From Williamsia sp. CHRR-6 (GTDB taxonomy: Bacteria > Actinomycetota > Actinomycetes > Mycobacteriales > Mycobacteriaceae): 64,000 nt of DNA. The notes beneath the pieces were generated by a model. The model was not told the origin of the DNA. It searched no databases and worked only from the letters and a program-made list of their open reading frames with translations. This document shows, piece after piece, positions 27,435-61,114 of this stretch. Within the stretch, counting starts at the first letter, position 1. Each line of letters starts with the position of its first letter. A program made the translations under genes and the position numbers. The DNA lies in NCBI RefSeq assembly GCF_018474015.1, contig NZ_JAHCSG010000002.1, positions 124,001-188,000 on the forward strand. The letters are read 5' to 3'.

Positions 27435-28859
27435 ATGGATGGGGTGATCACCTCGCCTGCTGCCGTGCTCTGGTTCCGCCGCGATCTGCGCCTGTCGGAT
27501 CTGCCGCCCCTGATGGAGGCGGCCCAGGCGAGCGATCGGGTGCTGGCCTGCTTCGTCCTCGACGATCATCTGCTGGCCACCTCGGGAGATCGTCGCGCGC
27601 AGTTCCTGTTCGACTCGCTGCGTGAGATCGATGCCAAGCTCGACGGGCGGTTGTTGGTGGTGCGCGGCCGGCCGGCCGAGCAGATCCCGCGGATCGCTGC
27701 GGCGGCCGGAGCCCGCTCGGTGCACATCACCGGCGACCACAGCCCCTACGGCATCGCCCGCGACGCCGAGGTGGCCACGGCGCTAGGCGATATCGAGTTG
27801 TGTTCAGTGGGAACATCATTCGCTGTCGCACCGGGGCGGGTGACCAAGGGTGACGGGGGTCCGTACAAGGTGTTCACCCCGTTCTTCCGGGCCTGGCGTG
27901 AACACGGGTGGCGCGCCCCCGCCGACACCGGGGTCGATTCCGCCGCCTGGATACACCCTGATGACGTTGTGGGCGTGGCTGATTCGGGGCTGCAGCGAGT
28001 CGACATCCCCGATCCCGGCACACCGCTGTCTATTCCGGCGGGCGAGGATGCGGCCATGGCGCGGTGGGCGCAGTTCCTCGAGGGCACCGACGGATATGCC
28101 CAACACAACGTGTCCGACTACGACGACGCCCGCAACCGTCCCGACTTGGACGCGAGCAGCCGGATGTCGGCGTACCTCAAGTTCGGCAACATTCACCCGC
28201 GCACCATGTTGGCCGACCTCACCAGGCTCGAAGAGCACTCACCGACCGCCGACGGGGCCACGGCATATCTGCGCGAGTTGGGTTTTCGCGACTTCTACGC
28301 CTCGGTGTTGGCCCAGTGGCCACACAGTGCTTGGCAGAACTTCAACCGCACCTTCGACGACATCGAGGTGGAGACCGGGGCGTTGGCGCGCAACCACTTC
28401 GACGCCTGGTGTGCGGGTCGCACGGGATATCCGATCGTCGACGCCGGGATGCGGCAGCTACGGGATTCGGGCTTCATGCACAACCGCGTGCGGATGATCG
28501 TGGCGTCGTTTCTCGTCAAGGACCTGCACTTGCCGTGGCAGTGGGGTGCGCGGTGGTTCCTCGATCAGTTGATCGACGGTGACCTGGCCAGCAACGCGCA
28601 CGGGTGGCAGTGGACCGCCGGGTGTGGCACCGACGCCGCGCCGTACTTCCGGGTGTTCAACCCCACCACGCAGGGCATCAAGTTCGATCCCGCCGGCGAC
28701 TATGTGCGGCGCTGGGTGCCCGAACTCGCCGGCGTCGCGGGCAAGGCCGTGCACGAGCTGAAGTCAGGTCGCCCAGACGACTACCCCGCGCCGATCGTCG
28801 ACCATGGTGTCGAACGCGCCGAAGCGCTGCGTCGATACCAGGTGTTGAGTAAGAAATAA
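27435..28859 (+). CDS. phr: Deoxyribodipyrimidine (CPD) photolyase
   Basis: 474 residues from ATG 27435. The N-terminal Rossmann-type antenna domain opens [16 protein letters not shown] (9-24). The C-terminal FAD domain carries [40 protein letters not shown] and the diagnostic [21 protein letters not shown], the catalytic-pocket signature of class I CPD photolyases. It repairs UV cyclobutane dimers using blue light. A second, atypical family member is at 57739-58974. Confidence 0.93.
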
Positions 28860-57738: not shown

Positions 57739-58974
57739 ATGCAGCTGCCCACACCGCCCGCGCCGCAGATCGACGACCACTCGGAGGTGATCGCGTGGGT
57801 CGCCGAGCATCTCGGTGACCTCACCCGCGAGGGTGCCGACGGGGTGTCGGCCGGGGCGTTCACCGGCGGACAGACCGCTGCCGACACCGCGCTGGCCGCT
57901 CTCGACATCACCGGATACGCCCGCGATCGCAACGAGGTGCTGCCGGTACGTCGTCGCGGGGCCAGCCGCATGTCGCCCTACATCCGCCACGGTTTGTTGT
58001 CGTTGCCGACGGTGTGGGAGGCCGTGGGCGACGCCCCCTACCGCGACCGGACCAAGTATCGCGACGAGTTGATGTGGCAGGAGTATGCCCGGCACCTCTA
58101 CGCCCGCGTAGGGGTTGAGACGGGTCACGCGCTGCGCTACGAACAGCCTCGGGTACCCGCGGGATCGTGGGGCGCCGACCCGTGGCCGCGCGAGATGGCC
58201 TGTATGGATCTTGTTGTCGACGAACTGCATTCGAACGGGTGGCTGGTGAACCAGACCCGCATGTGGGCGGCCTCGCAGTGGGCGGTGCGGGCTGGGGCCA
58301 CCTGGCGCGACGGTGAGGACGAGATGTTCGCACACCTGCTCGACGGGTCACGCGCGGCCAACCGGTTGGGCTGGCAGTGGACGGTGGGCACCGGGTCGGG
58401 CAAACCGTATGGATTCAGCCGCTGGCAGGTGACCAAGCGGTCGCCGGAGCTGTGTCGCCGATGCGAGCTGGCCTCGCAGTGCCCGATCGAGGACTGGCCG
58501 TCGGATCAGATGGGTCCTGCGGTGGACGGGCCGTACCTGGCCGCCGACGACATCCCCACCGGCCCACTTGAGACGCCCGATGGCGATGTGGCCGAAGCAG
58601 TCTGGTTGACCGCAGAGTCCCTCGGCGACACCGATCCGGCGATGGACGCTGACCCCGATCGCCCCGCGGTGTTCGTTTTCGACGAACCACTGTTGGCACG
58701 ACTGAGGTTGTCGGGCAAGCGATTGGTGTTCCTGGCCGAATGTCTCGGCGACCTGGCGCAGCGTCGGGCCGTCGAGGTGCGCCGCGGCGTGGTGTCCGAC
58801 GAGTTGGCCGGACGTTCGCTGGCCACCACCTGGGCACCGGTGCCAGGCTTCGGGCGCATCGCCGCGCGGGTACATCCCGTCGAGGTGCATCCCTGGCCGT
58901 GGCTGGTGGTGCCCACCCGCGCCCCGGTCCGCTCCTACACGGCGTGGCGCAAGAAGGTCGGCGACCCGAGCTGA
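57739..58974 (+). CDS. Photolyase-like FAD-binding protein with C-terminal domain and Cys cluster
   Basis: 411 residues from ATG 57739. There is no N-terminal antenna domain: the protein opens almost directly with the photolyase FAD domain (SRMSPYIRHGLLSLPTVW, DELMWQEYARHLYARVG, NGWLVNQTRMWAASQWAVRAG, NRLGWQWTVGTGSGKPYGFSRW). C155, C239, C242 and C248 are spaced much like the four [4Fe-4S] ligands of FeS-BCP photolyases. Residues about 305-345 (AVFVFDEPLLARLRLSGKRLVFLAECLGDL) look like part of an alpha/beta antenna domain placed after, not before, the FAD domain. Repair activity is unproven. Confidence 0.75.
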   Translation: MQLPTPPAPQIDDHSEVIAWVAEHLGDLTREGADGVSAGAFTGGQTAADTALAALDITGYARDRNEVLPVRRRGASRMSPYIRHGLLSLPTVWEAVGDAPYRDRTKYRDELMWQEYARHLYARVGVETGHALRYEQPRVPAGSWGADPWPREMACMDLVVDELHSNGWLVNQTRMWAASQWAVRAGATWRDGEDEMFAHLLDGSRAANRLGWQWTVGTGSGKPYGFSRWQVTKRSPELCRRCELASQCPIEDWPSDQMGPAVDGPYLAADDIPTGPLETPDGDVAEAVWLTAESLGDTDPAMDADPDRPAVFVFDEPLLARLRLSGKRLVFLAECLGDLAQRRAVEVRRGVVSDELAGRSLATTWAPVPGFGRIAARVHPVEVHPWPWLVVPTRAPVRSYTAWRKKVGDPS

Positions 58975-59014: not shown

Positions 59015-59869
59015 ATGCCCGCGGTGATCGCGACGATCAGCCTCAAGGGAGGCGTCGGCAAGACGACGGTGACCGCCGGACTCGCCGACCTGTTGGCCGG
59101 GGAGTTCGGCAGGCGAGTGCTGCTCATCGACCTCGACTCGCAGATCAACCTGACCACGATGATGATCGGCGAAGATGCCTGGCTGCGGCTCAACGCCGCC
59201 GGGCACACCCTGGCCACCCTGTTCGCCGACGCCGTCGATGGCACGGCCGAGTTCTCGTTGGCCGACACGCTGGTGCACAACGTGTCCACCGTGACCGGGC
59301 TGGGCGGCATCGATCTCATCCCGTCTTCGCTCGACCTCATCGAGGTGACCGAGGAGCTCAGTGCGTTGCGGGTGCGACGCGACGACACCGGCGCCGCGGT
59401 CGGGGTGCTGCGGGATGCGGTGGCGCCCATCGCCGGTGAGTACGACTTCATCCTCATCGACTGCCCACCCACGATGGGCCCCATCACGCTCAACGGGCTG
59501 GCGATGGCCGACGGCTATCTCATCCCGACCATCCCGGATGTGTTGTCCACCTATGGCATCCCACAGGTGCAGCGCTACGTGCGGCGCTTCTGCGACGAGA
59601 TCGACCGGCCCATCGTCGAACTGGGTGTGGTCATCACCAAATACCGGGCCGCCTCAGCGTTGCACCGCGACACCGTGCACCGCCTGCGTCGCGATCCCAC
59701 CATCGCCCACGTGTTGCCCGGCTACATCGCCGAGTCCACCACGGTGGCCGCGGCAGCCGGTCACAGCCGCCATGCCTCCCTGCGCGCGAAGTACGGCACC
59801 CACGGACAGTTCGACCAGTTCCGGGAGTTGGCGCGCACGGTGCTCACCGAGGCGGCCGACAAACTGTGA
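59015..59869 (+). CDS. ParA/Soj-family ATPase without ParB
   Basis: 284 residues from ATG 59015. Deviant Walker A KGGVGKTT (10-17), switch I LIDLDSQINLTTMM and Walker B FILIDCPPTMG as in ParA/MinD-type ATPases. The C-terminal ~60 residues lack a recognisable DNA-binding extension. No parB or parS-like clusters are near, so this is an orphan that may position a protein complex rather than DNA. Confidence 0.88.
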   Translation: MPAVIATISLKGGVGKTTVTAGLADLLAGEFGRRVLLIDLDSQINLTTMMIGEDAWLRLNAAGHTLATLFADAVDGTAEFSLADTLVHNVSTVTGLGGIDLIPSSLDLIEVTEELSALRVRRDDTGAAVGVLRDAVAPIAGEYDFILIDCPPTMGPITLNGLAMADGYLIPTIPDVLSTYGIPQVQRYVRRFCDEIDRPIVELGVVITKYRAASALHRDTVHRLRRDPTIAHVLPGYIAESTTVAAAAGHSRHASLRAKYGTHGQFDQFRELARTVLTEAADKL

Positions 59870-59902
59870 CCCCACCTCGGGCAGGTGTGGCAGCGTGGGG
59901 GA

Positions 59903-61114
59903 GTGACCACCTCGATGCCAGCGTGCGACCTCGACGCCGCCGATCCGCTCGCCGGATACGTGGATCGGTTCGTCACCGGTGGAGACGTGCAGGCCTACCT
60001 AGACGGCAACTCGCTGGGCCGACCGCTGCGGGTGACTGCCGACCGAGTACGCGACTTCGTCACCGACGAGTGGGGTGGGCGGCTCATCCGTGGCTGGGAC
60101 GAACGGTGGTTCGACCTGCCGCGCACCCTCGGTGACCGCATCGCCTCGCTGACCCTCGGTGCCGGGCCGGGCCAGACGGTGGTGGGGGAGTCGACCACGG
60201 TGTGGATCTACAAGTTGGTGCGGGCAGCACTGGCCCTACACCCCGGTCGCACCGAGATCGTCATCGACCGCAGCAACTTTCCCACCGACCGATATCTGGT
60301 GGAAGGCATCGCGGCCGAGACCGGCGCGGTGGTGCGGTGGGTGGAGCCGGACTTCGGGTCGGGGGTCACCGTCGATCTGCTCGACGACGTGGTCGGTGAG
60401 TCGACGGCGGTGGTGGTGGTCACCCACGTCGACTATCGCTCGGGCTTTCTGTTGGACGCCCCGGCCGTTGCCGCGCTGGTTCGCGACCGTGGGGCGCTGC
60501 TGTTGTTGGATGTGTGCCACTCGGCGGGGTCGGTACCCATCGAACTCGAGGACTGGGGTGTCGATCTCGCGGTGGGCTGCACCTACAAGTACCTCAACGG
60601 TGGTCCGGGCTCGCCCGCTTTTGCCTATGTGGCGCAACGACTTCTGGGCCACATCGTCCAGCCCATCTGGGGGTGGATGGGTGCTGCGGCGCCGTTCGAG
60701 ATGGGTCAGGGCTATGTGCCCGCCGCCGGCGTGCAGCGGATGATCAGTGGCACCCCGCCGGTGTTCGGGATGCTGCCGATGATGGACATGCTCGATCTCG
60801 TCGCCGAGGTGGGTGTGCCGGCGATCCGGGCGAAGTCGTTGGCGCTCACTTCATTTGCGCTCGACCTCGTCGACTCCGACCTCGCGCCGCGCGGTGTCAC
60901 GGTCTCCAGTCCGCGCGATTCCCGGCGCCGCGGCGGTCACATCACCATTGACCATCCCGACTTCCAGGTGATCACCGCGCGGTTGTGGACCCAGGGCATC
61001 ATCCCCGATTTCCGTCGTCCCCACGGGATCCGGCTGGGCCTGAGCCCGCTGAGCACCACCTTCGACGAGGTGGCGCGCGGGGTGGCGGCGATCGCAGCCG
61101 AGATCGCCGGCTAG
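59903..61114 (+). CDS. kynU: Kynureninase-like class V aminotransferase
   Basis: 403 residues from GTG 59903 (ATG 59915 is possible). Kynureninase features: YLDGNSLGRPL at the start, the GGRLIRGWDERWFDLP segment, the PLP lysine in CTYKYLNGGPGSPAFAYV and PIWGWMGAAAPFEMGQGYVPAAGVQRMISGTPPVF. It cleaves kynurenine to anthranilate and alanine. No kynA or kynB is in the window. It ends 1 bp before the stop of the converging nitroreductase gene. Confidence 0.88.
   Translation: MTTSMPACDLDAADPLAGYVDRFVTGGDVQAYLDGNSLGRPLRVTADRVRDFVTDEWGGRLIRGWDERWFDLPRTLGDRIASLTLGAGPGQTVVGESTTVWIYKLVRAALALHPGRTEIVIDRSNFPTDRYLVEGIAAETGAVVRWVEPDFGSGVTVDLLDDVVGESTAVVVVTHVDYRSGFLLDAPAVAALVRDRGALLLLDVCHSAGSVPIELEDWGVDLAVGCTYKYLNGGPGSPAFAYVAQRLLGHIVQPIWGWMGAAAPFEMGQGYVPAAGVQRMISGTPPVFGMLPMMDMLDLVAEVGVPAIRAKSLALTSFALDLVDSDLAPRGVTVSSPRDSRRRGGHITIDHPDFQVITARLWTQGIIPDFRRPHGIRLGLSPLSTTFDEVARGVAAIAAEIAG

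Follow-up and report, generated by a model that had tools for sequence, protein, structure and literature searches.

Photolyases of the NewPHL and SPL classes, which have been treated as one, are described as short proteins with an inverted domain topology that repair cyclobutane pyrimidine dimers (CPDs) in single-stranded DNA (PMC13274461, where UniProt A8LJA9, M7YZC8, Q2N8F4 and B6IPR5 are listed as named members). SPLs have been listed as one of eight main groups, with one, SePhrC, named in Synechococcus elongatus, an organism that has an FeS-BCP gene as well (PMC9178010), and a citing paper describes them as carrying an iron-sulfur (FeS) cluster and as being without the N-terminal alpha/beta domain. 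In this study a gene of Williamsia sp. CHRR-6 was compared with these proteins. It lies at positions 57739..58974 (+ strand) of a 64,000-nucleotide stretch of contig NZ_JAHCSG010000002.1, the whole of which is referred to hereafter as the window. Open reading frame calling, Pfam, phmmer and a search for relatives identified it as an SPL-type photolyase gene encoding 411 amino acids followed by a stop codon. The encoded protein matches the SPL/NewPHL class; as this class was already in print by 2021, we regard the protein as a new SPL member rather than the discovery of a new class. Taken as a whole, it is very probably an SPL enzyme with flavin adenine dinucleotide (FAD), a predicted [4Fe-4S] cluster and a permuted C-terminal domain, which repairs CPDs in blue light.

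The FAD-binding catalytic domain, delimited by PF03441 and by hhalign comparison with class I and FeS-BCP photolyases, spans approximately residues 40-250 (57856..58488, + strand). A Pfam search matched one family only, FAD_binding_7 (PF03441; E 6.5e-8, residues 155-222), and gave no match to the N-terminal photolyase domain anywhere in the 411 residues. Among NCBIfam entries, the class I and DASH photolyase models matched the catalytic part with scores far under their cut-offs. A phmmer search against PDB sequences resulted in 12 matches, the best being the Thermus thermophilus photolyase (1iqr, E 2.5e-13, catalytic half only), followed by, among others, the photolyases of Anacystis (1owl, E 8.9e-11) and E. 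coli (1dnp, E 1.3e-9). All 12 lay within query residues 5-237 and covered the part of the subject after approximately residue 190; since all of them thus fall on the catalytic part of known proteins, the N-terminal antenna domain is not at its usual place. This agrees with an initial interpretation of the DNA made from its letters and reading frames (hereafter the sequence-only reading), which had proposed a photolyase-like protein without this domain; Pfam, phmmer and a structural model all bear it out.

An alpha/beta domain was instead recognised at the C-terminus (residues 284-411; 58588..58971, + strand) by hhalign, by profile matches in whole genomes and by the strands of the model (residues 287-291, 310-315, 345-350, 361-364 and 382-384), which supports a strand-helix segment that had been noticed after the FAD domain. 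In hhalign comparisons, in which each E-value stems from a single comparison and class I residues are counted from the second one of the gene product, SPL residues 41-223 aligned with class I residues 199-401 (E 1e-23) and SPL residues 284-357 with class I residues 7-84 (E 7.3e-7), the order of the two segments being reversed. As residues 284-357 correspond to the antenna domain at the class I N-terminus, the domain order of the window protein is, as judged from these alignments, circularly permuted relative to class I photolyases, and its C-terminal domain is a permuted, reduced relative of that antenna domain. When whole genomes were searched with the SPL profile, the C-terminal part matched the N-terminal side of five frames (in G187, G304, G315, G318 and G209; E 2e-6 to 7e-4) and the catalytic part a later portion of each; blastp to the class I protein also encoded in the window identified all five frames as class I.

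The same reversal was found by blastp between this class I protein and SPLs of Deinococcus, for which E-values come from small local sets and Deinococcus coordinates are in open-frame numbering. Class I residues 232-404 aligned with residues 66-235 of L111 and residues 7-116 with 307-404 (E 1e-6), and L113 and L122 gave the same two-piece pattern with E-values of 1e-4 and 1e-3, respectively. On a plasmid of Deinococcus sp. QL22 (L112, 1405-2696), each of the two SPL domains has a gene of its own, the genes overlapping at ATGA. Compared by itself with a small local set of four subject proteins, the second gene matched the C-terminal domain of the SPLs (3.5e-20) as well as the N-terminal domain of class I (1.8e-4). 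The QL22 arrangement looks like a natural split, but may also stem from a sequencing error.

The search for relatives in the genome collection gave 418 candidate stretches, and the 81-row alignment and the locus counts reported here cover the window and the best 80 of these. A structural model was predicted from a 46-row alignment (A2) of the window and 45 of the 80 loci, from which L084 was left out because its reference crosses a stop codon and others for size. The model had a mean predicted local distance difference test score (pLDDT) of 92.1 and a predicted template modelling score (pTM) of 0.92. Foldseek comparison with the PDB gave 32 matches at E<=0.001, and the top 50 listed were all photolyases or cryptochromes, including FeS PhrB entries at ranks 4 (5lfa), 7 (4dja) and 11; none of these 50 was labelled NewPHL or SPL. 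The A2 profile also reached PhrB by sequence (E 3e-4). In a viral structure library three matches were found at E<=0.001, two labelled photo-lyase and one unnamed.

Four cysteines, C155 (codon 58201..58203), C239 and C242 (C239-x2-C242, 58453..58464) and C248 (C-x5-CP, codon 58480..58482), all on the + strand, are located where the sequence-only reading had placed them. It had suggested their conservation among homologues as a check, and all four are cysteine in 81/81 rows, against just 19/81 for a fifth cysteine, C335. In a second, mixed alignment the set was complete in 16/16 actinobacterial rows (the window and 15 from whole genomes, six of the latter being the same genes as rows of the 81-row alignment) and in three of three full-length Deinococcus plasmid proteins. 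It was missing from all three class I rows and from all five alphaproteobacterial or Bacteroidota relatives, one of which (L118) retains the first cysteine. The split Deinococcus protein L112 has the four cysteines too, with x2 and x3 spacing. In the model a helix starts at residue 154, beside C155, and the other three lie in a helix and loop region at 236-248.

These cysteines resemble a described ligand set. In A. tumefaciens PhrB the cluster is held by Cys350, 438, 441 and 454, as had been stated correctly in the sequence-only reading, and FeS-BCPs have a Cys1-Cys2 distance of 86-89, Cys2-x2-Cys3 and Cys3-x12-15-Cys4 (PMC3204975). When the SPL set was compared by hhalign with 13 FeS-BCP proteins (E 3.8e-9, over residues 75-251), the four cysteines fell one to one on those of the FeS-BCPs, C155 on Cys1 (PhrB Cys350), C239 and C242 on Cys2 and Cys3, and C248 on Cys4. 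The likeness that had been claimed in order and spacing thus holds for the order and for Cys2-x2-Cys3, whereas Cys1 and Cys2 are 84 apart in the window protein and Cys3 and Cys4 are separated by x5 only. On this alignment, C155, C239, C242 and C248 most likely ligate a [4Fe-4S] cluster. In principle, C-x2-C-x5-C together with a distant cysteine could hold other metals, and the cluster is a prediction here; zinc binding or a redox switch in place of 4Fe-4S is nevertheless improbable, given the one-to-one alignment with a proven 4Fe-4S ligand set and the statement in the citing literature that SPLs carry an FeS cluster. On the same side, the cysteine loop gave weak matches to the FeS-protein families EndIII_4Fe-2S (3/46 members) and WhiB (1/46) at E 0.04-0.4, which are not significant.

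The sequence-only reading had further proposed a phylogeny with FeS-BCP, DASH and class I sequences. A tree of the catalytic domain was calculated from 51 rows with IQ-TREE (LG+C20+F+G4, using posterior mean site frequencies, PMSF), comprising 16 of the 81 SPL rows, 13 of the 24 from class I, 13 from FeS-BCPs (that of the Williamsia genome itself and 12 loci fetched from the 19 matching genomes, own included), four Deinococcus rows and five other relatives; it holds no DASH row, as the single one, L119, failed the motif cut. The SPL, class I and FeS-BCP rows were each recovered as a single group in every bootstrap tree (100%), so that the window protein belongs to a separate group within this sample. 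A branch with 100/100 support set the FeS-BCPs apart, with the SPL rows on its other side. The tree gave no firm order among SPLs, Deinococcus proteins, cysteine-less relatives and class I, and the program issued a long-branch warning.

With the FeS-BCP (6-4) photolyases, to which PhrB and CryB belong, the window protein has four cysteines at matching profile positions and a similar catalytic fold in common, and the same order of these cysteines might suggest that it is a permuted form of that family. We consider this very unlikely. Unlike those proteins, which have (6-4) specificity and a DPRP N-terminal domain (PF04244), the window protein gave no DPRP match, has x5 rather than x12-15 between Cys3 and Cys4, and lies across the 100/100 branch from all 13 FeS-BCP rows. 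Moreover, the Williamsia genome has a true FeS-BCP of its own on another contig (L139; G000 contig C3, 56000-60000), with Cys 365, 453, 456 and 469 (open-frame numbering) in the classical spacing. Of the earlier suggestion of a circularly permuted or minimal FeS photolyase, the permutation and the FeS cysteine set are therefore supported, by hhalign, blastp, profile matches and the invariant cysteines; the protein is not a permuted FeS-BCP, as judged by DPRP, cysteine spacing and the tree.

The catalytic residues point to CPD repair by the SPL enzyme. In the phmmer alignment to 1dnp, E110 and W113 fall on E. coli positions 274 and 277, and N171, M175, W189, N208, W212 and W214 on 341, 345, 359, 378, 382 and 384. 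Positions 274, 277, 341, 345 and 384 we take to be CPD contacts. All eight residues are conserved in at least 80/81 rows. W189 and W212 occupy positions 359 and 382 of the electron chain of E. coli photolyase, W382-W359-W306 (PMC3204975). On these alignments, the window protein would accordingly be a CPD photolyase in which the outer part of the electron path is altered.

A mechanism can be proposed on this basis. The N-terminal catalytic domain would bind FAD, and its four cysteines would most likely hold a [4Fe-4S] cluster. Once excited by blue light, FADH- would give an electron to a CPD held by E110, W113, N171, M175 and W214, and the dimer would split upon electron transfer; the activity may extend to a preference for single-stranded DNA. 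In a Vibrio cholerae enzyme the homologous cluster is located 17 A away from FAD and has been called one of unknown function (PMC9852545), for which reason a structural role is favoured: the cluster is most likely not catalytic and would pin the helix from residue 154 to the loop 239-248. The C-terminal domain, as a permuted antenna remnant, most likely covers the FAD pocket, probably without an antenna pigment.

Several observations weigh against this interpretation. FAD and cluster binding are both deduced from sequence. The position of E. coli W306 falls in a gap of the 1dnp alignment, and therefore the third chain tryptophan is missing or replaced; W149, a candidate for it, is Ile in row L147, and Deinococcus has no Trp there. 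S204 (58348-58350) replaces E. coli D374 in 16/16 actinobacterial rows, the Asp being retained in 3/3 Deinococcus SPLs, and M175 is Thr in one row of the mixed alignment (L137). As to the permutation, none of the five cysteine-less relatives could be matched directly with the N-terminal domain of class I, though they align over their length with the Deinococcus SPLs. The model of the C-terminal domain alone gave no fold match in the PDB at E<=0.001 (photolyases reached a probability of up to 0.99 but only at E >= 0.04, and the top match was an unrelated structure), and a search of the PDB sequences with the profile of this domain yielded no photolyase at E-values up to 10. Finally, the assignment to SPL/NewPHL is by described features, the tree being made up of proteins other than named SPLs or NewPHLs.

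The serine at 204 and the missing W306 position would also fit a photoreceptor or cryptochrome without repair function, in which blue light would be sensed by the FAD domain and the signal passed on by the cluster and the C-terminal domain, and the FeS relative CryB of Rhodobacter sphaeroides has been described as a blue-light photoreceptor affecting gene expression. The conserved lesion contacts and the description of SPLs as CPD-repairing argue for repair, however, and the adjacent genes match aldo/keto reductase, ParA-like ATPase and kynureninase-like families, with no signalling protein among them. We hold a signalling role to be decidedly unlikely and retain the reading as an SPL photolyase.

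Relatives were largely actinobacterial: 79 of the 80 loci presumably belong to this group, going by the genus names in their titles, and the title of L094, which makes up the remainder, is that of a Myxococcota metagenome bin. Proteins from loci with a Rhodococcus or Rhodococcoides label are 68-74% identical to the window protein. An SPL match was present in 8/8 Williamsia genomes, the window's own included (an N run interrupts the G004 copy), in 13/61 genomes of the relatives set, own included (with a contig end truncating G041 and a broken frame in G044), and in 20/296 genomes of a phylum sample. Loci L011, L012 and L013, with an N run, a contig end and a frame break, were excluded from the alignments. 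A viral relative was sought and rejected; 39 stretches of the viral collection fitted a pattern and none encodes a relative.

The Williamsia genome encodes at least three photolyases, namely the SPL, the FeS-BCP and the class I CPD photolyase of the same window (27435-28859, + strand), 29 kb from the SPL gene. An aldo/keto reductase gene adjoins the SPL gene, which is followed by genes assigned by family matches to a ParA-like ATPase (59015-59869) and a kynureninase-like protein (59885-61114). A conserved operon with these neighbours was rejected after examination of 21 of the 80 loci. Next to the SPL gene in five Williamsia loci, the aldo/keto reductase was found in 5/5, the kynureninase-like gene in 4/5 and the ParA-like gene in 2/5; in the 16 further loci neither the aldo/keto reductase nor the ParA-like gene was found near the SPL, and the kynureninase-like gene occurred just in L043 and L044, both Nocardioides.

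SPL and FeS-BCP genes tend to occur in the same genomes. In the phylum sample, FeS-BCP (PF04244) was present in 18/20 SPL-positive versus 19/276 SPL-negative genomes (Fisher p 1e-16), and in the relatives set (61 genomes) in 13/13 versus 9/48. Genomes with an SPL are generally rich in photolyases, another photolyase-type match being found in 19/20 SPL-positive versus 56/276 SPL-negative genomes; the association persists within the genomes having such a match, where FeS-BCP was present in 17/19 versus 16/56 (p 5e-6). These tests ignore shared ancestry; with one row per genus, p was 1e-11. The two genes are mostly not neighbours: among the 18 genomes that have both, they adjoin in two, G155 and G220, on the same strand, and an FeS-BCP gene lay inside the fetched flank of 3/80 SPL loci (L072, L074 and L094, opposite strand). 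Occasional adjacency of this kind was noted at loci L148, L149, L072, L074 and L094.

It is conceivable, and we offer it tentatively, that in Actinomycetota the FeS-type SPL and the FeS-BCP work as a functional pair, retained and perhaps also acquired and lost jointly, in which CPD repair by the one and (6-4) repair by the other, both under common FeS or redox control, make up a second photorepair system next to class I photolyase. The pairing was not found discussed in the literature searched, which did not include the main SPL paper, and novelty is not claimed; the search gave no paper on SPL in Actinobacteria. With the window protein, Williamsia has an SPL whose FeS cysteine set is complete, and class I and FeS-BCP photolyases are encoded in the same genome. 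The evidence for permutation and the co-occurrence bear on the origins of photolyases and on why a repair enzyme would retain an iron-sulfur cluster.

Among described systems, the SPL/NewPHL class is the closest. NewPHL is said to have been described by Emmerich et al. in 2020, and Xu et al. in 2021 reportedly worked on an SPL of Rhodococcus fascians that binds FAD and an FeS cluster and repairs CPDs. Their abstract is said to mention four conserved cysteines in some SPLs, and the window protein has these in common with that FeS branch, invariant in 81/81 rows. It also has the CPD-photolyase-like catalytic region with lesion residues that is reportedly typical of the class. The five alphaproteobacterial and Bacteroidota relatives, which look like candidate members of the NewPHL branch, lack the four cysteines. 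As far as SPLs are described in papers citing Xu et al. (2021), no difference from the window protein was found; the N-terminal alpha/beta antenna domain is absent (Pfam, model), and the topology is inverted, the catalytic domain preceding the alpha/beta domain. With class I CPD photolyases, the window protein shares the lesion-contact and two Trp-chain positions as well as homologous catalytic and alpha/beta domains. It differs from them in that the alpha/beta domain is cut down and follows the FAD domain, where class I has its antenna domain in front, in the four cysteines that are absent from 3/3 class I rows, and in lying outside the class I tree group (13 rows, 100/100).
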